Assembly: GCA_963281255.1 (NCBI GenBank) | Contig: OY725503.1 | Location: forward strand, 1,426,001 to 1,490,000 | Length of the DNA stretch: 64,000 nt | Direction of reading: 5' to 3' | Origin: Aphrocallistes beatrix | Lineage: Eukaryota; Porifera; Hexactinellida; Sceptrulophora; Aphrocallistidae | Part shown: in pieces, positions 4,407 to 58,872 of the stretch | Layout of the letters: each line of letters opens with the position of its first letter | Position numbering within the stretch: position 1 is the first letter of the stretch | Translations under genes and position numbers: made by a program | The notes under the pieces: model-generated | Database searches by the model: none | What the model saw: only the letters and a program-made list of their open reading frames with translations | What the model was told of the DNA's origin: nothing

Positions 4407-5741
4407 CAGGGTGTTAAGAAATTGATGTCCTTTTTTTGAAATCAAATAAGGTTATTAATTAACCAAATTAATCGTGTTTTAGCTTCAAATTCTCTTTCTA
4501 CATACTGTAAATGATAGAATTTATATTCATTCTAAAAAGTGTTGATACAAAAAGTATTCTTTTGTTCAAATATCCTTAGTTCTCATACACTAGAAATAAT
4601 CATGGTCAAAGAAGTAACTCTAGCCTCCCGTACACGTGCAGTTTGCATGATAGAAGCTGGAATTTTTATTAAAAAAGTTGCCAAAGATATAGGGGTATCT
4701 GTCCGTACCATTCGGCGTTGGTTGCTGAGGTCCAAGGCTGGTGAGTCTCTACAGAACAGGGGGGGCCGTGGGAGAAAAACGTCCGTCACTATGGTGCCCA
4801 AAGTGGTCATTGCCAAGACAATCGGTAAAAAATGAAATCCACAAGACTTATCTCCAGGAATCTTAAATCTAAGGGATATTCTATCTCCCACGTGACGGTA
4901 TACACGTATTTACGCAAAAATCTGAAAGTTCGACCATACAAACCTCAGGTTCAACCCAAATTGACGGAAAAACAGAGGACAGCTCGCCTAAAATACTGTA
5001 ATGAGAGAAAGAATTGGACAATTGAAAACTGGCAGAGGGTTTTATTCTCGGATGAGTCCTCCTTCGAGTTATTTCACACTCCAAATAAGCAAAACGACCG
5101 AGTTTGGGCAAAATCTAGTGTCAATGTCCCCCCGACTGAAAAGGTCAAATTTCCTTGAAAGGTCATGGTGTGGGGTGTGATGTCATATCAAGCACTCTCA
5201 CACCTCCACATAATCCCCAAAGGGCAAACTGTGACATCAGAATACTATGTAGAAACAATATTGAAACAATCTCTAACATCCACTATGCTTCGAACGAGAG
5301 ATTCAGGGACTATTCTGGAGAAAGAATTGTTGCCAGAAAGGTCCAAAGCGATATTTCAACAAGATGGGGCCCAGCACATACCTCTAAGAGAAGCCAGGAA
5401 TGGCTAAAAAACAATATGCCGGGATTTTGGACTAAGGATATATGGCCTGCGAACTCGCCAGACTTAAATCCTATTGAAAACGTCTGGGTTATTTTGCAAA
5501 CCAAGCTGGATTCAATGGAGCGCGCAACAAACCTAAAAATGTTCGAATATCAACTAATTGAAGCCTGGAAGGAATTCTCACCAGTGACCCTAGAGAAACT
5601 CATAGCAGGGATGCCTTCTCGTATTAAAAAATGTTTAAAATTAAATGGAGATTACATAGGAAAGTGAATAGTACACCTTTCTAGTTTGCATTATTGTAAT
5701 ATGTATGGTACAAAATGGGACATCAATTTCTTAACACCCTG
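4407..5741 (+). mobile_element. Tc1-like DNA transposon, TA target duplication
   Basis: The terminal inverted repeats are CAGGGTGTTAAGAAATTGAT at 4407 and its reverse complement ending at 5741. They are flanked by TA on both sides (4405-4406 and 5742-5743). The element is 1335 bp and carries one transposase gene that is broken by frameshifts. The ends look nearly unmutated, so loss of activity appears recent. Confidence 0.85.
4602..5667 (+). pseudogene. Tc1/mariner-superfamily transposase, DD37E type, frameshifted
   Basis: Cut-and-paste transposase. It starts at MVKEVTLASRTRA (ATG 4602). An N-terminal helix-turn-helix (KKVAKDIGVSVRTIRRWLLRS) is followed by a basic GRGRK hinge. The reading frame shifts near 4825-4832, near 5155 and near 5370, where the QDGA motif lacks one C before PAHTSK. 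Catalytic motifs are FSDESSFELF (first D), QQDGA (second D) and SPDLNPIENVW (E). After allowing for the lost base I count 37 residues between the second D and the E, so this is a DD37E type, not the usual DD34E of Tc1. It ends with TGA at 5665-5667. No intact protein can be made from this copy. Confidence 0.8.
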
Positions 5742-7354: not shown

Positions 7355-8398
7355 TTAATCAGTTTCTATATCAAGCATGCTCTCACTCATCCTCCAAAGA
7401 CTTCGTGCAGCTCTCTTGTTAACATACCAGAACAGTTTCCCTTCAGCACAATCAGAGAAGTACTTACCAGACTTCCCTAAAACTTCATCAGAAACAGCGC
7501 AATAGATTGAAGTCTGAGCGCCTTGGGTAGGAGTTTTCAATACTTTTGATATGATATTAAAAAATCTAGATTTACTTATGTCGGGATTAATGTTGGTCAA
7601 TACATTACCTGGATGAAGACTATAAGTCTCCACTCCAGATAATGCCAATCTATCTGCAAGCTCCACTGTAAATAGTACATTGGCTAACTTGCTAAGTGCA
7701 TAGTTATAAAAGAGTCCAGTTCTTGCATGTGGATTAGGCTTTACATATTCTGAAGTTATTGAAATTGGACCAAGTTTATGTGCTAGAGAAGATACGTTGA
7801 TTATGCGACTTGGTTTTGATTCCTTAATTCGGTCCAACAAAAGATGAGTGAGATAGAAGTGTCCCAAGTGATTCACACCAAACAATAGTTCGTAGCCGTC
7901 TGAAGTTACTTCCGGCTTGTTGTTGAGTAGACCAGCATTGTTGATGAGAATATCGATTCTGCTCTCCTCCCTCAACAACCCCTCAGAGAAATGTCTTATG
8001 GAAGACAGGTCAGCAAGGTCAAGTTGTCGGAAGAGAACCAATTGGCTACCTGACTCCTGTCGTAGCTGTGCTTCTGCTTGGCTGCCTCTCTCCACATTCC
8101 TACACCCTAGAACAACTCTTGCTCCTCTTCTAGCTAGGTCCAATGCTGTAGCGTATCCAATACCGCTATTACCTCCCGTGATGACGACTGTCTTACCGTC
8201 TAACCTTTTTTCCTCGGAGAACCCGCCTCCCTTCCTGTTGAAAAAGTCAGTTATGTATCCATAGAAAATTGTGTGTAGTATCAAGGAAGTAGGAACGTAA
8301 GCCAGCCAAAGAGAAGGAAAAGGAATTAGCAGAATGAGAGGCAAGACACAGAGGAGAGTGAGATGAATGAGAGCGATAGTAGACAAGGAAGTATACAT
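7355..8398 (-). CDS. Short-chain dehydrogenase, retinol dehydrogenase 11-14-like
   Basis: Classical SDR of 347 residues from a single exon; probably an NADP(H)-dependent retinal/lipid-carbonyl oxidoreductase. Residues 8-50 form one or two hydrophobic membrane segments, which would anchor it in the ER or mitochondrial membrane. The Rossmann fold follows: TGGNSGIG (74-81) for the cofactor, NNAG (153-156), the active-site Ser in INVSSLAHKLG (about 204), and YALSK (Tyr233, Lys237). This pattern and the C-terminal region match the RDH11/12/13/14 and DHRS13 group; which paralogue cannot be told by eye. All catalytic residues are present and the frame is intact, so it is likely functional. The start is the first ATG and places the hydrophobic segment at the N-terminus. 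Confidence 0.85.
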   Translation of the reverse strand: MYTSLSTIALIHLTLLCVLPLILLIPFPSLWLAYVPTSLILHTIFYGYITDFFNRKGGGFSEEKRLDGKTVVITGGNSGIGYATALDLARRGARVVLGCRNVERGSQAEAQLRQESGSQLVLFRQLDLADLSSIRHFSEGLLREESRIDILINNAGLLNNKPEVTSDGYELLFGVNHLGHFYLTHLLLDRIKESKPSRIINVSSLAHKLGPISITSEYVKPNPHARTGLFYNYALSKLANVLFTVELADRLALSGVETYSLHPGNVLTNINPDISKSRFFNIISKVLKTPTQGAQTSIYCAVSDEVLGKSGKYFSDCAEGKLFWYVNKRAARSLWRMSESMLDIETD

Positions 8399-17172: not shown

Positions 17173-18512
17173 CTACGGGCGTTCAATAAGTTCTGATCAT
17201 TAAGAGATAACATGACTATATTGTACAAGTACCATAATTCGCTCATAGAATATGTTTATTCTATCAATGACCTAAAAGTCAGTTTTTATTTCATCTTGAT
17301 ATTCCATATACTTTTTGATTTACACATTATTTTGTAAAACCGATTTTGCATACTAATCAATTATGTCGTCATCAAAGAAGAATTCTAATATTGAGCAGAG
17401 ATCATACGTTAAGATTCGTACTCTGCTCGGGAAATCTGCGCACGATATACATATTGACTTGGTGCAAGTCTATGGTATGAAAGGTGCTCTATCTTATCCT
17501 GGAGTCAGACGATGAGCCCAGCGCTTTAGGGTAGGTAGAGAGTCTGTGGAAGATGACCCTCGGGCTGGAGCACCTGTTACGGCGTTTGTCCCCAAGTATT
17601 CCAGTGCTATTAAGGAACTCCTTGATTCAGATCCTCATATCACTGTTAAAGAGTTAGCTCATATTATTGGGATCTCAACGGGAAGTGTTGATCACATTCT
17701 GAAGTCAAAACTCAATCTATCAAAGGTTTGTGCCCGATGGGTCCCTCATTGCTTAACAAAGGCCCAAATGGCAACCAGGGTTAGATGTTGCCGAAACCTC
17801 TTAAAAGTATATAAAGGAGCTGACCCTCGTCGTTTATTTGAAGTAGTGACTGGTGATGAAACGTGGGTACTGTATAGCACACCTCTATCTAAAGAAGCGA
17901 ACAAGGTGTGGAAGGAGAGTCACTCAGATCCACCAATGATCCCTAGGCCCGATTTCAGGTCATCCAAGGTGATGTACTGTATATTCTTTGATGGATATGG
18001 CCCAGTTGCTCAGATAATAGTTCCAAAAGGACAAACCATTACAGGGAATTTCTATACTAGCCAGTGTCTTCGTGAAGTTGAACAACGACTATTTAAACGA
18101 AGACCTAGTACTGGAGCGAAGGGGTTAAAATTATTGCACGATAATTCCCGCCCTCACAAAACCAAGCAGGTCAAAGCCAAAATTGAAAGCATGGGGATGG
18201 TTGAGCTTGAGCATCCACCCTACAGTCCAGACCTAGCTTCTTGTGACTTTTATTTATTCCCGAAGCTAAAAGAGTACCTTTCTGGCCGCCATTTCGGCAC
18301 AAATGCAGCACTGGGTTCGGCGGTTTTACAGTATCTAAACCTTATACCTCCAGAGGACTATAAAAAAGTATTTGAACAATGGTTAAAACGTTTACAACGC
18401 TGTATCGAAAATCGTGGGGAGTATTTTGAAAAAATAAAACATTAACAACTTGTTTATTGTGTATTTTAAATGTTTTACAGTGTACTGATCAGAACTTATT
18501 GAACGCCCGTAG
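17173..18512 (+). mobile_element. Full-length mariner transposon
   Basis: The ends CTACGGGCGTTCAATAAGTT (17173) and its reverse complement (to 18512) are flanked by TA (17171-17172, 18513-18514). The inverted repeats agree over about 27 bp. The 1340-bp length and single transposase gene are normal for mariner. This is the best preserved autonomous-type element in the window. Confidence 0.9.
17363..18445 (+). pseudogene. Mariner transposase (DD34D) with one internal stop codon
   Basis: The frame runs from ATG 17363 to TAA 18443-18445, 361 codons, with one interruption: TGA at 17513-17515 (codon 51), where the family normally has Trp in a W-A-x-R-F motif, so one TGG to TGA change explains it. 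The rest is open: helix-turn-helix near 90-115 (TVKELAHIIGISTGSVDHIL), TGDETWVLYSTP (first D), LLHDNSRPHK (second D) and YSPDLASCDFYLFP (third D). I count 34 residues between the second and third D, the mariner signature. A protein starting at codon 62 (17546) would lack the first DNA-binding part and is unlikely to be active. Confidence 0.9.
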
Positions 18513-19480: not shown

Positions 19481-21337
19481 TTAAAGGTATGGGCAGTATG
19501 AAGAATTTGTTAGATTTGACTGTTGGAATGGAATAGTGAAGTGATATTCCCTAATGATGATTCCAAATATGCAAATCAATACACACAAAATGAGTGTCAA
19601 AACTCTTGAAGCGATTGTAAAAACAAAAGTAGTGGAATCCAAATTAGAGGCATGGTGTGCAGCTCCAGATTCTTCAGTTGGTAGATCCGGTCCAAGCTCT
19701 ACAAGGAGATTAGTGTTCTCAACTTCAGACTCATCTTGAGACACATTTTCATCAAACCAAGTTCTGTTTGAGATTTGTGTTTTCATATTCGTTTTTTCTA
19801 CATTATTATCTTCACTTGAAGAACATGTTTTCTCTTCATGTAGGTTTAGCTCACTCGGGGCGGCGCTGGTATGAGAAGTTGATTGATTAACTTTGCTAAT
19901 GAGTTTATCTTCCAGTACAAGGCCCGCATTCTTCATTGCCAAATCTGCCGTCTCCTTCCAGTCGATACGCAAAAAGAATACTGTGTAACCAATTGCTTGA
20001 GTGAATACTCCAATTCCTAATCCCAGCCAGAATCCGGAAGTGTACCACTTCAGAACGAAAGCGAATATGAAAGCCAGTGGGAGAGACACGAACCCGTAGG
20101 TGATGATGTTGATTAGAGCTCCAAACTTCTGCTTGCCACAGCCTTTGATTATTCCACCTGAAACACTCTGATATCCATCAATTAATTGGAATACAGAGAT
20201 CACGATTACTGGCCACGTCGAACCAGCAAGAATGCACAAGTCACTAGTGTAGAGAAGAGAGAGCCAGTGCCTGGAAAAGAACATTACCACGAACTGGGTA
20301 AATCCAATAAAAAGAATTGTACATAAGCTGAGGTAGGAACTCCGCCTTGCTCTGTTTGGTTCGTTATGACCTAGAAGATTGCCAATACGGACTGTGGCTG
20401 CAACCATGTAACCGAGTGGAATTGAGTAGATTAAAGTTGAAATGTTCATTAGAACCGAATAAATGCCCAGTTCGATTTTAGGATAAGGAGCAATCGCACC
20501 AACGGTAAAATAACCAAACTCATAGGCCCACCACTCAAAACATAGCATTAGCATTCCCGGGATTCCATACTTGAAGTATTGGTACCAATCGTAGAGTGCA
20601 TCTAGCCGCCAGTGCCCCCATGTCTGCTGATAGAGATGGGAGAACCGAAGATAGAGAATGTACCCAACAGCGACAGCATACTGCGAAGCTGTGAAGGCTA
20701 TTGCACAGCCGCTTAAGCCTAGTTGCAGGTGGATGACAAGGAAGTACTGTCCAATCCCATTTACCAATATACCAAATGAAGTACAGATTATCTGAGGTAG
20801 GACCAGGTTATGAGATTGGAAAAGTTTTAGAGTAACGTAAGACAACTGAGCTGCGGGAAGACAAAGACAGAAGTAGGAGATAAACTGCCCAGCAACTTCA
20901 GCAACATCTGGATCTTGATGCAAGATAAGTAGTATCGTTTCTAAATTGAGCCATAAAGCTGCGAGTGGGAAACATAGAAGTGCATGGATTAATAAAGCTT
21001 TCTGATAATAAAGTCCGCATTGACGGTACTGCTTCGCCCCATAAGCTTGAGAACAGAGAGTTGCTAAGGCAGAACTCAAGCCAATAGAAATAGCACTTCC
21101 GGTAATATTAGTAAATGACAAAGCAATGCTACTACCATCGAAGAATTTTTTATCCGAACTAATATGCCCAGCAAACACCAAACATATAAACTTGTTCAAA
21201 CTTGCTAATATATAAGCTAGAGAATTAGGTAGAGCAAGTTTGTTCAAAATGAAAAGCTCTTTGATAATGTAAAAAGAAAATATATTGTCAATCCAGGAAT
21301 TGGTACGTATAGAATTCAATATCTTGTTGTAGGACAT
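19481..21337 (-). CDS. MATE family proton-coupled cation exporter (SLC47-like)
   Basis: 618 residues from one exon, an animal-type multidrug and toxin extrusion transporter that exchanges organic cations for protons at the plasma membrane. Twelve hydrophobic segments form two bundles, followed by a long polar loop (about 460-575) and a thirteenth C-terminal segment (RVLTLILCVLICIFGIII), the arrangement of animal SLC47 proteins. FEWWAYEFGYF (near 270) keeps the two glutamates of the family's FEWWAYE motif. The later glutamate normally found about 22 residues on seems replaced by Asn (SVLMNIST). ATVRIGNLLG and GIIKGCGKQKFG also match the family. The frame is intact and the start is the first ATG. 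The 3' end is 60 bp from a T1 MITE. Confidence 0.9.
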   Translation of the reverse strand: MSYNKILNSIRTNSWIDNIFSFYIIKELFILNKLALPNSLAYILASLNKFICLVFAGHISSDKKFFDGSSIALSFTNITGSAISIGLSSALATLCSQAYGAKQYRQCGLYYQKALLIHALLCFPLAALWLNLETILLILHQDPDVAEVAGQFISYFCLCLPAAQLSYVTLKLFQSHNLVLPQIICTSFGILVNGIGQYFLVIHLQLGLSGCAIAFTASQYAVAVGYILYLRFSHLYQQTWGHWRLDALYDWYQYFKYGIPGMLMLCFEWWAYEFGYFTVGAIAPYPKIELGIYSVLMNISTLIYSIPLGYMVAATVRIGNLLGHNEPNRARRSSYLSLCTILFIGFTQFVVMFFSRHWLSLLYTSDLCILAGSTWPVIVISVFQLIDGYQSVSGGIIKGCGKQKFGALINIITYGFVSLPLAFIFAFVLKWYTSGFWLGLGIGVFTQAIGYTVFFLRIDWKETADLAMKNAGLVLEDKLISKVNQSTSHTSAAPSELNLHEEKTCSSSEDNNVEKTNMKTQISNRTWFDENVSQDESEVENTNLLVELGPDLPTEESGAAHHASNLDSTTFVFTIASRVLTLILCVLICIFGIIIREYHFTIPFQQSNLTNSSYCPYL

Positions 21338-25361: not shown

Positions 25362-26621
25362 CTATCGACACTCCCAAATTTTCGCGGAATAATCTACACT
25401 TCCAGTCAGGACAAACGGGTTCTTATGATGGCAATCTAGACAACTGACAAAGTGGTCATGGGCTTGTAGGGATTTGTGAATTCTCTGGTTTTTATAGTCC
25501 CAAACCTTTAAAGTTTTGTCATCTGATACGCTGAAGAGATACTTCCCTCCAGGATGAAATTTCAGGCCGCGTATCCAGTCGTCGTGCCCTTTCAAAACAC
25601 ACAAACACTGTCCAGTCGCTATATCCCACATCCTGATTGTCTTATCTCTCGAGCCTGAGATCAGAAATCGGCTAGGTTTAGTTTTCTTTGCCGTTGCATC
25701 GACATTGCTGGGATCTACCTCCTTCTGGTGGCAAAGGTTGACTGTGATGCAGTGGAATGCAGTATCTGGCGCCCATTCAACACACTCAATCACGTGATCA
25801 TGCCCTATGAACTCGTTGATGCATTCCGCGGTGGATATAGTCCAGACACGCACAGTTTTGTCGTCGGAGCAGCTAGCGAGATAAACCCCATCCGGACTGA
25901 CTTTGACGCATCTGACCCATTCCTTGTGAGCTCGGATTGTCTTCTGGCAGTACCCCGATGAGAGATCCCAGATCCTTATGGAGGTGTCACGAGATGCCGA
26001 GATGAGGAGGCCAGTAGGGGTGTAGCTCAGTGAATGGATGCTATGCTCGTGTCCTTGCAGAGTTTTAGTGCAGTGTAAACCTCCGATATCCCAGAGTTTG
26101 ATGCTCATATCGTTAGAACAGGAGGCCAGTGTCTTTCCGTTTGGATCGAAAACGACATCTTGTACGCTGTCCGTATGACCTCTGAGTGTTCCGTTTAGTT
26201 CTCCTGACTCAGAGTCCCATAGTTTGATCTGAGCATCGTCCGAGGCGGTTGCGATGAGTTGGTAGATCGGATGGAACTTGACCGCATTTATGACGTTACG
26301 GTGCCCCAGGAAGGAAGTCTTTTCAGGCGGTCTTGGAATCCACTCGGAAGGATCCAACTTCTTCCGAGAAGGCAGATACTGTTCACTCGACATTTCTTTC
26401 AATCTCTTAGTTAGTTCCTCGTTCTTAAGCGTCAGTCTGACAACAGCGATCCATTTCTTTTCGAGAGCGCCTTTTGCCAGAGATGAATTGTTATTTGATA
26501 GGCCCGTTTCCCTTGAAAATACCTCATAACTCTCGTTAAGACCCTGTGATTTCAAATAGTCGGCTAATGCGAAATGGAGCTCTTCTCTCTGTTTTGTCGA
26601 CAGCAGTGATTTGTCCACCAT
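25362..26621 (-). CDS. PAFAH1B1: LIS1, dynein regulator / PAF-acetylhydrolase beta subunit
   Basis: 419 residues, one exon. LIS1 binds the dynein motor domain and acts in nuclear migration, spindle positioning and microtubule transport. The N-terminal LisH motif is [17 protein letters not shown] (about 10-26), a short coiled coil follows (about 50-85), then seven WD40 repeats ending in a WD-like dipeptide (KLWD, KLWD, RIWD, RVW, RMWD, KVWD, KIW). The [15 protein letters not shown] entry to repeat 1 and the [12 protein letters not shown] block with a longer insert before it are typical of LIS1. The start is the ATG at 26619-26621; the frame is open a little further only with a TTG. Length is close to the usual 410. 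An intron acceptor may lie just upstream (TTCCACTCTGATTGCTCAC). Confidence 0.95.
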
Positions 26622-31660: not shown

Positions 31661-32518
31661 TCATTCAATCTTATCAGAATTTAGAGGGATGAACAGGGTT
31701 TCGTCCCAAGGGCCATAAATATTATTCTTTAGCTTTTGAAGGTTTAAGAACAAGAGAGGCGAGATTACGTTAACCAGGATCAGTATTAGTACGTATAAGC
31801 TGAATAAATGGATTTGGTTAAGAAGGAATGATATTGCAGTTATAATGATGAAAAGAATGGGAAATGTTATGAAGTTTATTGACTTGTTTTCATATTTCAT
31901 TCTTTTGATGAATGCAGGATAGAGAAAGAATATTTGAAATGCAAATATAATAATAGCTAGGGACTGCCTAGGAATCTCTACTCGTGAAGCAAGGCAAACT
32001 GATGCTGACATTCCGAAATTGAATGACAGTCTTTGGGAAGCGAGTTCACGTTCATCTGTGCTTTGAAAGTTATGGAAAATGAAATTGAATAAAATTAGGA
32101 TAATAATCATAAACCAAATAGTGTCCGAGGAGATCTGAGCTACCAGAGAATGTATTCTAGGCGATAAAGCATACAGAAATGTGATTATAATGCATACGCT
32201 CTTGATGTCTTTGTAAATCTGATTGAATTCAAATAAAAGAGAACTACTATTTAAATAGAGTAGATACAAAAATAGAGTTATGCTGCATGTGCAAAAAAGG
32301 AGAGCATCCAGTGCCTCATTTCCAAATGCGACAGCAGATATAACTAATAACATCGCAAACGAGAAGTGGGTCGAAACGTTTAGTGAGCTGAATAGAAGCT
32401 GGTGAGGTGAGTAGATCGGGGTGAAAAGGTTTGTTTTGAGAAATACGAGGAATTGGTCCTCAGGAAAATAATTATCAAGGTATTGGGACCCAAAAAGTTT
32501 TCGTTTCCACTTGTCCAT
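31661..32518 (-). CDS. PIGC: PIG-C, GPI-GlcNAc transferase subunit C
   Basis: 285 residues, one exon. PIG-C (yeast Gpi2) is a multispanning ER membrane subunit of the GlcNAc transferase complex that starts glycosylphosphatidylinositol anchor synthesis. The N-terminus WKRKLFGSQYLDNYFPED fits the family start (W-K-K-x-L-Y-x-x-Q-x-x-PDNY). A run of about eight hydrophobic segments follows, and the C-terminal IYGPWDE is a hallmark of the family. The length is close to the 297 residues of the human protein. Start is the first ATG. The frame is open and unbroken. Confidence 0.85.
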   Translation of the reverse strand: MDKWKRKLFGSQYLDNYFPEDQFLVFLKTNLFTPIYSPHQLLFSSLNVSTHFSFAMLLVISAVAFGNEALDALLFCTCSITLFLYLLYLNSSSLLFEFNQIYKDIKSVCIIITFLYALSPRIHSLVAQISSDTIWFMIIILILFNFIFHNFQSTDERELASQRLSFNFGMSASVCLASRVEIPRQSLAIIIFAFQIFFLYPAFIKRMKYENKSINFITFPILFIIITAISFLLNQIHLFSLYVLILILVNVISPLLFLNLQKLKNNIYGPWDETLFIPLNSDKIE

Positions 32519-34998: not shown

Positions 34999-36953
34999 CT
35001 CAATATTTCGGCCTTCAGAATTACCACAGTTGGAAATTCTTCCTCAGTTTGTAATTGAAGGAAGCTCCAGTGATTCGGAAGACCAAATAACTGGAATAGA
35101 AGTGCCATCGACACCGGGTACACCTTCAACGCCTGCTACTCCATCATCCGCTTTGGGAAATGTTTTCTCTCACATGTAGGTATATCTACCCAAACGTCTG
35201 AAGAGTCAGATTTTGCGAGCCCCAAAGTATCTCAACGGAAACGAAAATACCAGAAGAAATTGAAACGCTTTCAAAAGGGACATGCCAAATATACAAACGA
35301 GGATGTTTCTATACATAAGCGTGGTAGGATCGCACTTCTGCAATCAGATCTTTTCTCCACATTGAAATTCTCAAGTCCCACTCCGATTTCTGAAGTAAAA
35401 CGGATACAGATGGCGTTGAAAATTCTCGAAAGCTAATCAAACCCTCGGGCAATCAAATTTTCAAGCTTGAAATTCTCGCTCAAGTTTTCAGCTTGTTTAC
35501 TTGTCCTAATAAATTATGTATTGGATGTCCAGCCTTTTACCAGCAGGCAATGTGTGATGGACTACAGTCCTTTTTTGTCATCAAATGTAATCGCTGTCAT
35601 CAAGCTATTGTTGAGTTTCCGGCTTCGCTACCTATTGCTATGCCACCTCAATCATGCATCAATAATAAGTCAGTTCAGATCAGAGGAAAGAGCGAAGTCA
35701 ATACAAGAGCAATGCTTGCTGTTCATTCTACCTCGTCCAGTTGGGAAGATTTTCGTCTCTTCTGCTGTCTAATGGACCTCAACTTACCGTCCCATAATAT
35801 GCCCAAATCCAAGCTTCAAGATTTCGTTGAAGCTACGAACAGCGTTGTGGCTAAATCTATGAAATATTCCGCAGAGAATGTCAAATCTACAAGTAATTCA
35901 TTATTACAATCTGTTATTCCTGATATAACAAACTGTACTGTGAGCTTTGACGCGTCATGGCATAGACGCGGGCACTAACAATCAGGGATTCGCTGCCGTG
36001 ATCGATTCCGAATTTGGAAAGGTCTTAGATTTCGTGCTATACGATCGTGTATGCATTCATTGTTCGAAGTGGCCAGAAGAAAGAAAAATGAAGGAACCTG
36101 ACGACTATGCAGTTTTCTGGAGTAGACATCAGGAGGTTTGTACCTCTAACTTCAAAGGATCATCTCAATCGATGGAGAGTTCAGCTGCAGTGGAAATGTG
36201 GAAGCGTTCGGTTGAGAAGAATAAGCTGATCTATGAGATCTATATTGGCGACGGCGATTCTTCTTCATTCAAAAATCTTCTGAAGTCTAACCCATACAAT
36301 TCTTTGCTGAAAATTCGCAAAGAAGAATGTTTGGGACATGTTCAAAAAAGGGTAAAGAAGTGGCTCCGTAAGAAGAACAAATGTTTTCGAGGGCTCCCAG
36401 AGCCCAAAGCAGATCAAATTGCGCGCATGTACGCTCTTGTTGTGGAACCGCGGCAAAGACTGCTACTGAAATTCATGAAGCTCTCCAAACTCTAATAGCG
36501 ACATCGATGAAAAACACCATACTTGCCCAGTAGGTGAGGACACGGGTGTTATTTCCAAAAGAAACTCTCACTCACCCCTTCTTCATCTTCTCACATCATC
36601 CCAAGAGAAGAATACTTTTGCGAGTGTATAATATCGCTAGGGAAGACCCAAAATGCCAACGAGAGCCTCCATAATATGCTCTGGCATAATGCTCCTAAAT
36701 TCAAGAGGGTCAGACAGGCGTCACTAAAAGCATGCACTGCTCTTGCCATCTTGTCTTTCGACGATGGTTCAACTTCTTTCGCGTCTGTTTTGAATTCTCT
36801 GGGAATATCTCCGTTATAAATCAATGGCTTTCCTTTCGAGACGGGATCACTCCCGAAATTTAGCGAGGATTCGGTAAAATACTTCTTTGATTTGACATGA
36901 ACTTGGCATGAACATTTGAGCTTTGGTAAGACCTTGGCATGAACATTTGAAGG

Positions 36954-38253: not shown

Positions 38254-41200
38254 ATGACGCACCATATCTATGCAGGAGCTAGCGAAGACTGGGATGCAGA
38301 AGTCGAGTCTAGTTCTAATCCTACTCCCATTGATACATACCTGCCCAAGGAGACGTCAGTTGGAGAGTATGAAATAGAAAGTATGGATGTTTCCAATTCA
38401 GATGAATTTATTCCGTCAAGCATGCATTTTAATTCGATGAACTCGCATAAAGACGAACAAATGTGTGATACAGCTAGTCAAATATGCTTTGAACAGACTG
38501 AATTAATAGATAATATCATACTACGGAATTCCACCTTATATTTAGGTAATGATAGAAGAAACCTATACATTGCTCTAAATGTCATCCGAAGGTTGAGTCA
38601 TCAAATCTTGCCTACTTACACAGAGAATCTACGATCCTCATCATCTCATGCTTGTAAACGGCGTACTGTATTAATTTGTCAATCCGATAGTTTGTTGCAT
38701 CAATATCATGGTTATATTCATTCCCATTTACCTTCACGCTATTCGACAGCAATTCTGTCTGATCAACTATCCAATGAGGAATTTTACGCTCAAATGACTA
38801 ATGCAAATATTCTTGTAATGAAACCTCAAACTCTGCTTAGAATATTATTTTCTGTGATCAAAATTTCTGAAATCAATTTAATTATATTTGATAAATTACG
38901 ACAATTTTCAACAAATCCAGAATACAAAGAAATAATGAACATTTATTTGAGGACTAAACTAGAAAGTGAAAATGTTCAACTTCCAAGAATACTTGGTCTC
39001 TCTGTCAGTTTTATGTTTGATAGAAAATGTGATATAAGTGTAAAAAATCTGAGTAAATATATATCAGAATTAGCTCGACACTATGATACATCGATGTTAA
39101 CTTCCAATCTTTATCTAGAAGAATGGAAGGATCGGGTAGAACCTTTCCATCTAGTGTTACCTTATTTAGATACACAACTTACCGGGGGGCCTTTTCAATT
39201 TTCGGTAAAACTACAGGAATATAACTCATACATTAATCAAATGATGATAGAATTCAGTGATAAAAAATTAAACGATGTAGCGTCCAACATTCACGAAACA
39301 ATCCAGAAACAGACAAAGAAATCGATCCTAATGGATATCACACCACTAACTCCACCAATCAGTTTGATGTCATTAAGATCCATCGCCACTCAGATACACT
39401 CAGTTCTAATCGAAATCGGGGTCTGGGGATGTTTCCAGGTCTCCATTTTATATTTTAAACTCTTGCAAGAATATTGTCTTCACTGTAAGAAAGATATTAT
39501 TCTCTTCTCTGCTATTTCAAACCTCTCTAGTCTACTTAAGAGATATGTGATCCAACTACTTACAAATCACGCGCCCACCTTGAACGATATCAGTAATAAA
39601 GTTCGAGTTACTCTGAACCGGTTGATCACTCTCTGTAAAGATGATTATTTTAGTTGCATTATCTTTGTAGAACAGAATATAGTGGCTTACATATTATCCG
39701 CCTATTTTAATAAATTGGCTTATAGTTTTCCTGACTTTGAGAGAATAAATAGTCATTTTATTATAAGTACAGATTCTAATGAGAACCAAACTCTATCTCA
39801 TCAAAATACCATTATATCTATGTTTAGAATGCATGAGTTGAATTTGTTGGTTTCTAATGGCACTCAATTAGATTGGATTGAGATACGGAGTTGTTCTGCT
39901 GTCATAATGCTAAACCCAATTTCTAGCTTTCCAGATTTCATTCATTCTAAAGAAAAAATTGATAATAACGGAGGAATTTATATATGTCTTTCAACTGAAT
40001 TAGAAAAATACAGTTTAGTTTCGGATCTCAGACTGTACTGTGACATTGAGCATTTCTTGTTCTATGATAACTCACCAGAAGAGAGTTTTGATGAGAAGCA
40101 CGAGGGAGAGAAGAGTTATAATTTCACTACTACGACTGGAGTTGTATTGACTGAGATGAATGCTATTCCTATTCTGAACTGCTACTGCCAGTACCTAAAC
40201 AGTATTCGAGATGTTGACATGTATACTTGCTGGAAACCTTATTTCAAGCTAAAGAGGAGGCTGGTTAGATCGCGGCACAGTTCTGTTGAGATTTATGTCT
40301 ACAAGTGCGATATACAAATGCCTAAATCTTGCTATGTGTTCAGTAATATAGAATTACCCACCCAATGGTCTAGTTCCAAATTCAATGCAGAACAGTTAGC
40401 CGCTTATAATGTTTGTTTTAAACTTCTGAATCTTGGTCAGTTAGATGAAAATTTAGCTCCTATTTTCGTAAGTATTCGATATTCAGAGAGAAAAATAGCG
40501 AACCCTACTTATGATATAGATGTTGGCTTTTATCCCATCAAAATAGCCAGTTGCCTTACAACATCACTCGAAGACAATCCAGTGGGTTTTCTGCATCCCT
40601 ACTTTATTAAGAATGATAACCAGTACGAATTGAATACTACATTTAAATCATTTGCTTTCCTCTCTGCTAGTTCTCTCGATCTTAACCACTTACCCAGAAT
40701 CATTCTAAATGATTGGATGAAATATATCGGCGCGGTATGCAAAGAAGTTGAATTTATTGCACCAATTCAAATAGCTGTAAGTCCGACTGAATTGGAACAG
40801 TTCAAATTATTTAACTCTGTTCTATTTCAACAGATGGTCGGGGATATCGATCCTTTAGAATATGACTATCGGAACTCTAAAAAGAGATATCTCCTGATCC
40901 CTGTTATACTGAAGAATATATCGGTCCAACAGGCATGTGTGTATAAAGAAATTGATGTTGAAGTATTAGAAAATCTAAAATCTTGGCCATCAATCGTTCA
41001 ATTTTATCGAAAGGGAGAGACTCCTCCCTCATACAAAGATATCCTTGTTCAAAAGAATTATACTTTAAACTGTGAAAAATCTAATCTTTTCCGTATCGTT
41101 GGATTGAATTCCAATATTAATATAGACTCTCCGTTCCCTGAACTATCCAAGGCATGCAGTTACAAGGAATACTATAAAGAACTTCATCAAATTTCTTTTA

Positions 41201-42789
41201 CTAACCCAGGCCAAGCTGCTTTGATTCTAAGGCCTTTTTCTAACAAAATACATAATCATTTGAAAAAACATGACGGTAAGATTGAAAATCTAAAAAAGAA
41301 TTCTGATTTTGGAGTGGACAAAAGGCGCCCTGAAATTCTCTCTTTTCCTCAGTTACTCACTCCGATCCCTCTTCTCGGCTCATTATCTGCTCAGTATCGC
41401 CTCATATCCTCAATTTGCCATCGATTAGAATCCTATATGCAAGCATTGGAATTTATTCAAAACCTGGGTTACACGATTCCCCTCTATACATGTCTTAATG
41501 CACTAACTCTTAAACGTTGTGGCGAGGAATTCGATTTGGAGAGATTGGAATTTTTTGGTGACACTTGTCTGAAATTTATTGTCGTCAATCATCTATTTTT
41601 AAAATTTCCTCTCGAGAGCCAAGGAGTTCTATCTAACATCCTAGCTTATCGCGTGAAGAATTCTCTCTTGGTGAAATTTGCTAATCAGAAGCATCTGGAC
41701 CTACCTAATTGCATAACAGGTAGAGAATTTAGCCCTTCTTTAAATTGGTTGCCTCCAGGATTTAGAGTTAGAGATTCAGAAAATCCCGAACAAAGCAACG
41801 GTTTCACCAACTCTCATCAAATAGCCAATCATATCCTTTATAGTCACCAAGAATTGTATTCCAAGTCAATCGCAGATGCCTTTGAGTCTGTGTTAGGTGC
41901 AATTCTAACTTCTACAGGCCTTCCTAATGCTTTATTATTTCTTCTCTCGTTTGGAGAGGTCTCAGTTGTTCGTGAGCTATTAGATTCATTTTGTATCAAG
42001 TCTCCTCCAGAATTTTCATGCGACCCGAATCAATTTTCAGAAAATCCTTTTCATTTCTATCTTCAAGGGGGAGGATGGTTTCACAATTTGTATCCAGACT
42101 ATGAAGCTAATTATTGGGATAACGAGATGTGTGATGAATATGAGAAGAATTTCCATGATATACATTCACTTTTCGCAAAAGAAAAACTAAAAATTGAAGA
42201 GCAATTAAGTTACCAACACAAATATCTGATTCTCCAAGCACTAACACATGATTCCTACATCAATCAATCATTGACCCCGAGTTATCAAAGACTGAATTTG
42301 CTGGGTGATGCTTTGTCCGAATATTTAGTCGTTTCATTCCTCATGACTCAAGCTCCGGAGAGTTTTTATCCAAAAGATCTACACATAATAAAGGTGTGTA
42401 TACTAACGAATCTAAATCTCGCAAGAATTTGTCTTAACCAGCGTTTTCATGAAGAATTTTTATACTCCAGTTACCTTCTTCAGACTGGAATTGATATTAT
42501 TAGCAGCTACATTGCTAATGAAGATGAGAATGACTATTTTGACCATGAAATACATTTAGTATCTAATTCTCGATCAGGCAAAGTTGGAGTTGAAGATTTG
42601 ATTACTGACGCTCAAAAGGTTTTAGCAGATGTTTATAAAAGTTTGATCGCAAGTGTATATTTAATTTCAAATTTTAATTTGGAGAAAGTTTGGAGATCTT
42701 TTGGTACTGCGCTTAGTCATAGTGCCGGAATGTTTTTAAATATGTATATTAAGTCCCTAAATGCCGAATCAAATATGAACAATTCCTAG
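38254..42789 (+). CDS. Dicer-like RNase III with degenerate helicase and RNase IIIb
   Basis: 1511 residues, one exon. The order is that of animal Dicer: helicase-like (about 75-620), dsRBD-fold/DUF283 (about 635-720), platform-PAZ (about 760-1000), connector, RNase IIIa (about 1075-1225), RNase IIIb (about 1310-1490). Substrates would be dsRNA or hairpins. Walker A is replaced by LGNDRRNLYIA (97-107), DECH by DKLR (213-216), and the motif VI region reads HSKEKIDNNGG without arginines, so ATPase activity is not expected. RNase IIIa keeps E1099, D1103, D1208 and E1211. RNase IIIb reads QRLNLLGD, with N1348 for Glu, D1352 kept, D1459 kept and K1462 for Glu. The protein ends about 30 residues after RNase IIIb with no dsRBD. 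The long frame is fully open, which argues for selection. Start is the first ATG; a further 5' exon cannot be excluded. Confidence 0.9.
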   Translation: MTHHIYAGASEDWDAEVESSSNPTPIDTYLPKETSVGEYEIESMDVSNSDEFIPSSMHFNSMNSHKDEQMCDTASQICFEQTELIDNIILRNSTLYLGNDRRNLYIALNVIRRLSHQILPTYTENLRSSSSHACKRRTVLICQSDSLLHQYHGYIHSHLPSRYSTAILSDQLSNEEFYAQMTNANILVMKPQTLLRILFSVIKISEINLIIFDKLRQFSTNPEYKEIMNIYLRTKLESENVQLPRILGLSVSFMFDRKCDISVKNLSKYISELARHYDTSMLTSNLYLEEWKDRVEPFHLVLPYLDTQLTGGPFQFSVKLQEYNSYINQMMIEFSDKKLNDVASNIHETIQKQTKKSILMDITPLTPPISLMSLRSIATQIHSVLIEIGVWGCFQVSILYFKLLQEYCLHCKKDIILFSAISNLSSLLKRYVIQLLTNHAPTLNDISNKVRVTLNRLITLCKDDYFSCIIFVEQNIVAYILSAYFNKLAYSFPDFERINSHFIISTDSNENQTLSHQNTIISMFRMHELNLLVSNGTQLDWIEIRSCSAVIMLNPISSFPDFIHSKEKIDNNGGIYICLSTELEKYSLVSDLRLYCDIEHFLFYDNSPEESFDEKHEGEKSYNFTTTTGVVLTEMNAIPILNCYCQYLNSIRDVDMYTCWKPYFKLKRRLVRSRHSSVEIYVYKCDIQMPKSCYVFSNIELPTQWSSSKFNAEQLAAYNVCFKLLNLGQLDENLAPIFVSIRYSERKIANPTYDIDVGFYPIKIASCLTTSLEDNPVGFLHPYFIKNDNQYELNTTFKSFAFLSASSLDLNHLPRIILNDWMKYIGAVCKEVEFIAPIQIAVSPTELEQFKLFNSVLFQQMVGDIDPLEYDYRNSKKRYLLIPVILKNISVQQACVYKEIDVEVLENLKSWPSIVQFYRKGETPPSYKDILVQKNYTLNCEKSNLFRIVGLNSNINIDSPFPELSKACSYKEYYKELHQISFTNPGQAALILRPFSNKIHNHLKKHDGKIENLKKNSDFGVDKRRPEILSFPQLLTPIPLLGSLSAQYRLISSICHRLESYMQALEFIQNLGYTIPLYTCLNALTLKRCGEEFDLERLEFFGDTCLKFIVVNHLFLKFPLESQGVLSNILAYRVKNSLLVKFANQKHLDLPNCITGREFSPSLNWLPPGFRVRDSENPEQSNGFTNSHQIANHILYSHQELYSKSIADAFESVLGAILTSTGLPNALLFLLSFGEVSVVRELLDSFCIKSPPEFSCDPNQFSENPFHFYLQGGGWFHNLYPDYEANYWDNEMCDEYEKNFHDIHSLFAKEKLKIEEQLSYQHKYLILQALTHDSYINQSLTPSYQRLNLLGDALSEYLVVSFLMTQAPESFYPKDLHIIKVCILTNLNLARICLNQRFHEEFLYSSYLLQTGIDIISSYIANEDENDYFDHEIHLVSNSRSGKVGVEDLITDAQKVLADVYKSLIASVYLISNFNLEKVWRSFGTALSHSAGMFLNMYIKSLNAESNMNNS

Positions 42790-46042: not shown

Positions 46043-47199
46043 TCAGTCGACAGACCGATAGTGCAGCTCCAGGGAGTGACTCGAAGGAACATGAAATATG
46101 AATATCAAAATACATCGGCAAATACTCATTTTAGGACATTTTAAGTGTAAAATTTAGAATTTACATATTAAAATATCCTATATTAGCTGTTGAGAACTCG
46201 CTTTTAGCTCAAAATATTAATTTTTTTCAGGTGTGAAAGTATGCATATATATGTGCTAATAACCCATAAATATTCACATTATTCCCTTTAAAATGTGAAA
46301 ATCGGATTCAAAGTATTAAAATATCCTATATTAGTTGTTTAGAACTCGCTTTTAACTCAAAATGAAATTTTTTTCAAAAGGTGTTAAAATATGAATATAA
46401 ACTTATGTAGTAATTCATAGCATTCACATATTATCACTTTCAAATTGCGAAATTCGGAATCTACATATTAAAATATCCTATATTAGCCGTTGAAAACTCG
46501 CTTTTGGCATAAAATAAGACTTTTTTTAAAAGGTGTGGAAATATGTATATATCAATATGCTGATAACTCATGAAATATTCATATTATTACTTTCAAAGCG
46601 CGAAAATCGGATCCTACATGCCGAAATATCCTATATTAGTCGTTGAGATCTTACTTATATCTTTAAACAAAACTTTGCAGTGGGGGTGTTAAAATATGAA
46701 TATATACTTATAAAAACCGGAAGTGATGAGATTTTGCGAAAGAATGTTGACGGTGCACATCTACACCATAATGAGGTCCTACATGCGAAATTTGGTAAAT
46801 ATCGGACTGTTAGATTTCGCAGTAGCGCGCGAACGGACATACATACATACATACATACATACATACATACATACATACATACATACATACATACATACAT
46901 ACATACATGCATACATACATACATACATACATACATACATACATACATACATACATACATACATACATACATACATACATACATACATACATACATACAT
47001 ACATACATACATACATACATACATACATACATACATACATACATACATACATACATACATACATACATACATACATACATACATACATACATACATACAT
47101 ACATACATACATACATACATACATACATACATACATACATACGGACGGACGAGATACTCTGTCCATACCATAAGGGCATCTCCCTATAGGAGCTGCACT
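46043..47199. mobile_element. Composite insert with 150-bp tandem repeats and a (CATA)n tract
   Basis: Flanked by AAAAATG on both sides (46036-46042, 47200-47206). AGTGCAGCTCC near the left (46060) is inverted at the right end. It contains about four tandem units of 147-153 bp (marker AAATATCCTATATTAG at 46171, 46318, 46471, 46624), then a long microsatellite. No coding capacity. Confidence 0.7.
46837..47142. repeat. (CATA)n tetranucleotide microsatellite, 306 bp
   Basis: About 76 units with a single interruption (ATGC near 46908). Open frames on both strands encoding Tyr/His/Ile/Thr or Met/Tyr/Val/Cys repeats are artefacts. Confidence 0.95.
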
Positions 47200-47319
47200 A
47201 AAAATGAAATTGGGACCAGGAGGTTAGTTCATAATAAACGAATGTTCATATTAAGCGGGTTCATAGTAAGCGACCCTGACTGTAGTTATATATTTTTAGC
47301 TTAGTGTTATCTCTATTTC

Positions 47320-57715: not shown

Positions 57716-58872
57716 AATTCATCGTTACATCATAATGGTCCGAGCCATTATCACTATCGATATTTTCAGAAAGAGATACTTATTCCATTTGGGAGGTATT
57801 TGGGATAAAAGGTGAACCAACATCCTCTACGCTGTATGTAATGTCTTCGTTATCGCTTAATAGTTCAGTTTCAAAACTTGGGAACTTTGAACTAAGATCT
57901 TCAACTGTATTGATTGAATCGTGAAGTGTAGAAGGAATATCAAAATCTCGAAGTCCTCGAGGTGGATCTCTGCCATATAGAACCTTATATGGACTGGTAC
58001 TCAGAATCGTATGTAGTGTTGTGTTTTTCATATATGCTACTCTGTCCAATTCCTTAGCCCAATGAGAATGGCCTTCTTTTTCCGACAAACTTTGAAGAAT
58101 ATTCTCAACAGAGCCTTGGGATTGTGGCTTTCTAGGTTTTCCATGTATTATTTTGGTTGATGGCCACAATGCATTTAGAGTTTCCAATAGAAGTCTATCA
58201 TAAAACTCCTTGCCATTGTCACTCTGGAGTATGTTCGGTGCACCAAGTGAATAGAAGACTGACAAGATTGCTGGCAACTTCTTCCGCACATTTTTTTTGG
58301 TGGTTTTAATACTACCCACTTAGTGAAGTGATCCTGGTAATTTAAAATCCACTTAAATCCGATATCTGGCACAGTACGCATATCGATAAGATCAACATGT
58401 CCCCGTGAGCCAAAGCTTGTAGACAGAATTGGATTTGTTACTAAAGATTTCTGACTCTTTTTGGAAATTCTTGCCTGATGGCTCGGGCTGTGCTCTAAGA
58501 ATAGCCTCACTAACCCAACACTGATATATATATACCTTGTTCCCTTAAATTATGGTGAATTTGTTTCCATCCTGCAAATCCTGTCTGTTCTCACGACCAA
58601 TAAAGTTTATCGAACGAAACAACTTGGAAGGACTTATCTTTATTGTAAGGATCTAGTATATAGCGCAATTCCTTTACTTCCAAGACCTTAAGAACGCGAA
58701 AATGCTGAAGGGATCGATCAGCTCGGGGATACGTCCCGCTTGGATCGCAGAGTTGCTCGATTATCCCTTCTATCTCTTTATTATTCCAGATACGACACTT
58801 TGACTCCTGTTTTTTAGCCAGTACTTCGTCTTCAAACTTTCGACGGTGGTAATTTAAACGAATATCAGACAT
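57716..58872 (-). pseudogene. Ginger integrase (rve) gene, several lesions
   Basis: The N-terminal part (58872-58591) has KRBA2-like LHHFRVL-type helices and SFDKLYW, then a stop. The zinc domain is recognisable as IHHNLREQGI (HH) with HSPSH where CPSC is expected, in shifted frames. The core has HVDLIDMRTVPD (first D), LQSDNGKEF (second D) and KPQSQGSVEN (E), about 37 residues apart. The frame shifts at the eight-base A run (58291-58298 on the plus strand), meets a stop near 57770, and shifts again near 57680 before the zinc/CxC ORF. All three acidic residues survive, but an active enzyme cannot be translated without recoding. Confidence 0.75.

Follow-up and report, generated by a model that had tools for sequence, protein, structure and literature searches.

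A clade-conserved glass-sponge Dicer paralogue with a complete RNase IIIa site, a substituted RNase IIIb site and a degenerate helicase

Which role could be left to a Dicer that has lost one of its two cutting sites together with its helicase motifs, and is such a gene maintained at all? The question is raised by a single-frame gene in a 64,000-nucleotide stretch (the window) of the genome of the glass sponge Aphrocallistes beatrix, read in the original prediction as a Dicer that should cut only one strand and not use ATP. Re-reading of the open reading frame bore out the predicted run of open codons (Table 1).

Domain layout and catalytic sites

Membership of the Dicer family follows from two tandem RNase III domains above the Pfam cut-off (PF00636 and PF14622, two stretches each), the DUF283/Dicer dimerisation domain (PF03368, 46.9 bits versus a cut-off of 23.7) and the placement in the tree, while DEAD stays below its cut-off, as does PAZ (21.4 bits, cut-off 28.8).

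Table 1. Features of the Dicer paralogue in the window (nucleotide positions within the window)
Feature	Position	Strand	Remark
Single-frame Dicer paralogue ORF	38254..42789	+	1511 codons, open throughout
HEL1, degenerate	38479..39108	+	residues 76-285; boundaries set in present analysis
Walker A place, LGNDRRNL	38542..38565	+	residues 97-104; alignments
DExH motif II place, DKLR	38890..38901	+	residues 213-216; alignments
HEL2i/HEL2, degenerate	39109..40053	+	residues 286-600; boundaries set in present analysis
Motif VI place, arginines lost	39946..39966	+	residues 565-571; alignments
Dicer dimerisation domain	40162..40467	+	residues 637-738; PF03368
PAZ region, diverged	40954..41283	+	residues 901-1010; score below Pfam cut-off
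RNase IIIa, site complete	41455..41958	+	residues 1068-1235
RNase IIIa catalytic codons	E1099 41548-41550; D1103 41560-41562; D1208 41875-41877; E1211 41884-41886	+	
RNase IIIb, site dead	42181..42723	+	residues 1310-1490
RNase IIIb catalytic positions	N1348 42295-42297; D1352 42307-42309; D1459 42628-42630; K1462 42637-42639	+	

Residues at the eight catalytic positions were compared first across 23 aligned Dicers and then across 28, the larger set comprising all 15 listed sequences of two sponge groups and 13 hand-picked other Dicers; rows were drawn from the best 120 of 343 proteins and from further lists of 36 and 11, and P0153, one of 24 candidate rows, was omitted from both alignments. 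RNase IIIa reads E/D/D/E in 28/28 aligned Dicers, and the four acidic residues predicted for the window protein are present in both alignments. RNase IIIb is E/D/D/E in all 20 rows outside the clade of the window protein versus N/D/D/K in the window protein itself (28-row alignment), which thus lacks the E/D/D/E in both domains of a catalytically complete Dicer. As predicted, asparagine (codon AAT) and lysine (AAA) replace both glutamates of this site and the two aspartates are kept. The proposed realignment placed glutamates there under no alignment, and no alternative would bring them back, as the flanking residues align gap-free at the catalytic sites. Since the lysine, aligned with the human tumour hotspot E1813, occupies the place of a metal-binding glutamate, RNase IIIb should not hold metals. 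A structure model of the RNase IIIa-RNase IIIb part (pLDDT 83.8, pTM 0.86) has a mammalian Dicer in the dicing state as top fold match; two positions of the dimer socket are unlike those of the intact paralogues in 8/8 clade members among the matches listed, which is counted against one-strand cutting.

Walker A, the DExH motif and the motif VI arginines were looked for at the aligned places of the window protein and found absent, in line with the predicted helicase loss, so that it does not carry the Walker A and DExH motifs of an ATP-dependent Dicer. The loss of motif VI is read from the alignments and not from the pattern search, as the latter also missed intact paralogues. Among the matches listed, the Walker A pattern occurs in 0/8 clade members versus 7/7 intact paralogues. 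A DExH-like pattern at residue 613 lies away from the motif II place and is due to chance.

A fold search with the platform-PAZ region returned Dicers in 47 of 50 listed matches, from a moderate model (pLDDT 72.4, pTM 0.53) and with low TM-scores. At an E-value of 0.01, a PAZ match is found in three of eight clade members versus seven of seven intact paralogues among the matches listed; the weak PAZ matches suggest a possible change in how the 3' end is anchored, which is likewise counted against one-strand cutting. The absence of the C-terminal dsRBD, also part of the original prediction, was observed, but intact single-frame paralogues are equally devoid of it; it is therefore neither special to this gene nor to be counted as its loss, and it was rejected as a sign of decay. 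Nine dsRBD matches occur across the genome, none near any Dicer, and a search with the Dicer dsRBD family PF20932 gave no match anywhere, controls included, and so carries no weight.

Clade conservation and constraint

The window protein belongs to a fully supported clade (100/100) of eight single-frame members among the matches listed, including a protein of the glass sponge Oopsacas minuta, and the clade is joined to seven intact Dicers with equal support (100/100). Although identity among the relatives falls to 33%, all eight members among the matches listed possess E/D/D/E in RNase IIIa and lysine at the last RNase IIIb position, with methionine in seven and asparagine in one at the first. 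By these sequence comparisons, the locus is not one decaying gene but a member of a conserved clade.

As relatives were compared as proteins, rates per domain and a simulation of neutral decay stand in for dN/dS. In 50 simulations of neutral decay to 38% identity, a lineage accumulated 24-52 stops, versus 0 observed. The rates relied on come from the run with the clade topology of the best tree, another run having had a topology unlike it; a first run with three clade members only gave stronger contrasts (HEL1 1.91, RNase IIIb 0.56). When the seven domains are ranked by their estimated rates within the clade, RNase IIIb comes out slowest (0.66 of the clade mean, 5-95% 0.54-0.82), its interval overlapping with those of PAZ and RNase IIIa. 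HEL1 evolves at 1.17 of the clade mean versus 0.71 in the intact paralogues, an acceleration of the helicase read as its release from constraint. The own-to-others ratio, which presupposes that the relatives in the two gene sets stem from the same sponges or from sponges at equal distance, as similar branching suggests, is 1.21 for RNase IIIb, 0.70 for the platform, 0.84 for PAZ and 2.07 (5-95% 1.43-2.83) for RNase IIIa. The faster RNase IIIa, also counted against one-strand cutting, is as compatible with relaxed constraint on the catalytically complete domain as with specialisation. Scans for promoters, tRNAs and Rfam families gave nothing useful.

The window gene is constrained, not decaying. 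The many motifs lost at once and the length of the branch leading to the clade (0.89 changes per column) might speak for a decaying pseudogene, or for an assembly or alignment error, but the open frames with the same lysine in eight relatives among the matches listed, the lack of stops and the slow evolution of RNase IIIb make this very improbable.

The search for a second, complete Dicer yielded three further Dicers in the genome, in each of which neither RNase III site lacks a catalytic residue. Among the seven intact rows, P0004 and P0122 are the genome's own genes on C14 and C2, P0122 being identical and P0004 differing by one residue over 1522. A Drosha-like reading of a split RNase III gene on C2 was rejected; the gene is a fourth Dicer. 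The genome also encodes many Argonautes and has nine RdRP matches, and both of the RdRP frames examined include a helicase of the Dicer type in which GSGKT and DECH are present.

Proposed function and alternatives

Of the original interpretation, the half-dead nuclease and the motif-less helicase stand as real and common to the clade; the dsRBD as a loss of this protein does not. An extra glass-sponge Dicer that lost one cutting site and the ATP motor and kept the rest suggests a natural one-strand cutter. We consider it about evenly balanced whether this glass-sponge paralogue has turned into an ATP-independent, one-strand-cutting enzyme with RNase IIIb as a structural pseudo-nuclease. Both RNase III domains would still fold together into a single processing centre, in which RNase IIIb would be retained as a structural, RNA-positioning partner without metal binding and RNase IIIa, presumed active, would cut the same strand as its human counterpart, which in a hairpin is the 3' arm. 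The product would be a nicked RNA, and the protein would work within the RNAi system of the sponge. One-strand cutting is proposed by analogy with mammalian RNase IIIb mutants: Dicer altered at E1813 (mouse E1797G) yields nicked precursors with the 5p product lost and the 3p product kept (PMC12700799, excerpt), and upon mutation of one RNase III site of Dicer the other site still works (PMC8138440, excerpt).

Alternatively, the whole protein might be a pseudo-enzyme, a non-cutting scaffold or regulator holding dsRNA or partner proteins, with the RNase IIIa site a relic or weakly used. This would agree with the lost helicase motifs, with the complete Dicers available for cutting and with RNase IIIb, platform and PAZ evolving at, below or nearly at the paralogue rate while RNase IIIa is accelerated. 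We regard it as somewhat unlikely, as a useless site should have drifted like RNase IIIb, but the four acidic residues of RNase IIIa are kept in every relative among the matches listed. Pairing with another Dicer or an RdRP-helicase encoded in this genome, as the source of the second cut or of ATP-driven feeding of RNA, appears unlikely. The three other Dicers and the two helicase-bearing RdRP frames could provide such partners, and helicase-RdRP fusions co-occur with helicase-less Dicers in Dictyostelium, Hydra and Nematostella (PMC4791657, excerpt); however, the same source, in its excerpted text, gives this coincidence no clear significance, the two RNase III domains of one chain would, according to the model, already make the centre, and the intact paralogues in the genome retain their helicases. 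A far-reaching extension of the one-strand reading, which we hold to be quite doubtful, is that glass sponges run an obligate single-strand-nicking half-Dicer on dsRNA from their own expanded helicase-fused RdRPs, with small RNAs from one strand only and strand choice made by the nuclease, not by Argonaute.

Relation to known systems and significance

In Drosophila Dicer-1 both RNase III sites are live, unlike in the window protein. The two share a degenerate helicase, Dicer-1 being ATP-independent (PMC10328071, excerpt). The DICER1 E1813 hotspot mutants resemble the window protein in the position changed and in the intact RNase IIIa, but arise by disease mutation in a Dicer that is normal elsewhere, whereas the change is fixed in the sponge clade, where a further RNase IIIb glutamate and the motifs of the helicase have gone too. 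Dicer paralogues short of RNase III catalytic residues are also known from Hydra (DicerC) and from flatworms, Echinococcus RNC3.1 among them; most key residues are altered in the Hydra protein and one aspartate is lost in that of Echinococcus, apparently unlike the layout with RNase IIIa complete and RNase IIIb dead (PMC3991619, excerpt). In kinetoplastids, the editing endonucleases N1-N3 and their partners B8-B6 combine a live and a dead RNase III in one centre, which is held to, or may, restrict cutting to one strand (PMC9508840, excerpt), but these are separate proteins with zinc fingers acting in mitochondrial mRNA editing.

The excerpted text of a conservation survey lists variation in both RNase IIIb motifs, and none for RNase IIIa, in Trichoplax DCL2b and the Dicer of the diatom T. 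pseudonana (PMC4791657, excerpt), so that the half-dead layout may already have been published for these two. They are single sequences in that survey, whereas the layout of the window protein is clade-conserved and constrained. As Dicers altered in RNase IIIb alone are already in print, what is new here is a clade-conserved variant rather than a wholly new type. A literature search found no paper treating Dicer in glass sponges (Hexactinellida), nor one with microRNA, and a term search did not find the word Dicer in the main text of two glass-sponge genome papers.

The findings also point to glass sponges as an animal group well equipped for RNAi. If nicking is true, the paralogue would be the natural counterpart of the tumour DICER1 hotspot mutants, one that selection has maintained in a line of animals; it would reveal the use of a half-Dicer, offer a natural one-strand-cutting Dicer for study and make nuclease-set strand choice directly testable.

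A clade of Dicers with a dead RNase IIIb site

The Dicer paralogue of the window, which corresponds to C17:1426001-1490000 in a genome assembled into 28 contigs (100.5 Mb in all), is open throughout as originally predicted, with two RNase III domains and a Dicer dimerisation domain scoring above the Pfam cut-off and PAZ and DEAD domains scoring below it. Its nearest named relative among the matches listed is a protein of Oopsacas minuta (Hexactinellida) with 37% identity over 99% of the length. In a tree of 28 Dicers (LG+G4; amino-acid composition odd in 12 of the 28 rows, including P0001), the protein forms one clade (100/100) with seven relatives, P0002, P0003 and P0155-P0159, all eight being 1505-1534 residues long. 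This clade adjoins seven intact Dicers (99/98), and both groups are joined at 100/100.

The RNase IIIa site reads E/D/D/E in all 28 aligned Dicers, the window protein included, whose complete IIIa had been predicted. RNase IIIb reads E/D/D/E in 20 of 20 rows outside the clade and in none of the eight inside, which show N/D/D/K (window), M/D/D/K (four relatives) or M/E/D/K (three relatives); the last position is lysine in 8/8 despite the 33-41% identity of the window protein to the other seven. As N1348 and K1462 align with E1705 and E1813 of the vertebrate-type Dicer P0016 (1922 residues) and the flanks of the IIIb catalytic sites are gap-free, the predicted loss of both glutamates holds. The Dicer with a dead IIIb is a clade and not a single broken gene.

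Alignments of the window protein also bear out that Walker A and DExH are absent and that motif VI has lost its arginines. The Walker A pattern is found in 0/8 clade members versus 7/7 intact paralogues; helicase remnants vary, two motif VI arginines persisting in P0155-P0157 and Pfam Helicase_C still being matched in 3/8 members. The RIIIa-RIIIb model (22-row alignment; pLDDT 83.8, pTM 0.86) has mammalian Dicer in the dicing state as best fold match, and 15 of the 18 ten-residue blocks covering IIIb reach a pLDDT of at least 90. The DUF283-platform-PAZ model is weaker (pLDDT 72.4, pTM 0.53), Dicers making up 47 of 50 fold matches among those listed, with low TM-scores; Pfam PAZ is recognized at E 0.01 in 3/8 clade members versus 7/7 intact paralogues.

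RNAi genes of the genome and neighbourhood of the window

Nine RNase III matches in the genome represent four Dicers, the window's included, and one mL44-like protein (by eye); Drosha was not found by this search, reading exon by exon. Further Dicers with both RNase III sites complete, as sought with the original prediction, are present: two single-frame ones and an intron-bearing one known from its exons, the Walker A exon lying outside those covered. Of 24 Piwi-domain matches, 11 are nearly full-length and 5 of the remainder contain stops, while nine RdRP matches each lie in an open frame of 2019-2639 residues. Among three RdRP frames examined, two combine a Dicer-type helicase with the RdRP (2582 and 2635 residues, in the order C4, C1) and have a weak nucleotidyltransferase-like C-terminus under the Pfam cut-off, the best solved relative of the C4 helicase being an ancestral Dicer helicase (E 1.1e-44); the third joins RdRP to a UPF1-like helicase. 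The RNAi kit is expanded, with many long uninterrupted frames. Within the window, a long tandem repeat at 46647-47304 translates as HTYI when read on one strand and as CMYV on the opposite strand, with several frames open.

Coordinates of features in the window and of RNAi genes elsewhere in the genome
Feature	Location	Strand	Attributes
Dicer ORF, single-frame	window 38254-42789	+	1511 open codons; Pfam: two RNase III, Dicer dimerisation domain
Intact Dicer, single-frame	C14:3580681-3585084		complete IIIa, IIIb, Walker A, DEAH
Intact Dicer, single-frame	C2:1834523-1838935		complete IIIa, IIIb, Walker A, DEAH
Fourth Dicer, intron-bearing	near C2:1208500-1223200 (L017, L018)		DECH, QSKGRAR, both RNase III sites complete
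Helicase-RdRP frame	C4:4498500-4508400 (L024:1961-9709)		Dicer/RIG-I-type helicase (GSGKT, DECH), RdRP (DLDGD)
Helicase-RdRP frame	C1:6894000-6903900 (L026:1040-8947)	minus	GSGKT, DECH; RdRP DLDGD
RdRP with UPF1-like SF1 helicase	C11:4038000-4047900 (L025:4279-9900)		DMDGD; N-terminal AAA_28 P-loop; frame runs past stretch end
Transposon remnant, DDE_3	window 5140-5667		Pfam
Short-chain dehydrogenase	window 7355-8398	minus	single-frame
Transposon remnant, Transposase_1	window 17516-18445		Pfam
MatE transporter	window 19481-21337	minus	single-frame
WD40 protein	window 25362-26621	minus	single-frame; LIS1-like by eye
GPI2	window 31661-32518	minus	single-frame
Transposon remnant, Mutator-like	window 35394-36495		Pfam
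Transposon remnant, integrase-like frame	window 57780-58319		by eye; no Pfam match

Constraint on the dead domain

When the ORF was simulated to decay neutrally until two lineages shared 38% identity, 50 runs produced 24-52 stops (mean 37) versus none observed, and of seven domains in the clade IIIb has the lowest estimated rate, results that together speak against the decaying gene considered alongside the original prediction. Branch lengths were estimated per domain with the topology fixed and columns bootstrapped 50 times. By this measure the IIIb rate is 0.66 relative to the mean of the clade (5-95% 0.54-0.82), an interval overlapped by those of PAZ (0.69-0.92) and IIIa (0.69-1.08), and that of HEL1 is 1.17 versus 0.71 in the intact paralogues. 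For the window's species compared with the others, this gene's distance was also expressed as a ratio to that of the intact paralogue: HEL1 2.76, HEL2 1.83, DUF283 2.62, platform 0.70, PAZ 0.84, IIIa 2.07 and IIIb 1.21 (0.98-1.76). These rates and ratios show that the helicase has been freed from constraint and the dead IIIb is kept nearly as tight as a live one.

Precedents and proposed mechanism

Single Dicers of animals, diatoms and oomycetes that have lost RNase III catalytic residues have been published (PMC3991619; PMC4791657), and as Trichoplax DCL2b and a T. pseudonana Dicer are entered for IIIb and not IIIa in the latter account, the half-dead layout may not be novel in itself. The literature search found no half-dead Dicer with clade-wide conservation, the same replacement residues and a constrained dead half. 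Helicase-RdRP fusions are described from Dictyostelium, oomycetes, Hydra and Nematostella (PMC4791657), and RdRPs have been reported from sponges (PMC6085071).

Despite its complete site, IIIa evolves faster than in the intact paralogue, which favours a non-cutting dsRNA-binding scaffold or regulator and counts against the best explanation, an ATP-independent Dicer cutting one strand. For the latter, the reported Dicer biochemistry provides the rationale: IIIa is assigned to the 3'-hydroxyl and IIIb to the 5'-phosphate strand, and when one site is mutated the other still works (PMC8138440), while Dicer changed at E1813 nicks precursors, making the 3p strand, which is loadable into Argonaute, and leaving the 5p strand on the loop (PMC12700799). 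On this basis, a Dicer with complete IIIa and dead IIIb would be expected to nick. Kinetoplastid RNase III pairs in which one partner is dead offer a parallel (PMC9508840), and the degenerate helicase would be compatible with ATP-free action, as reported for Drosophila Dicer-1 with its likewise degenerate helicase (PMC10328071).
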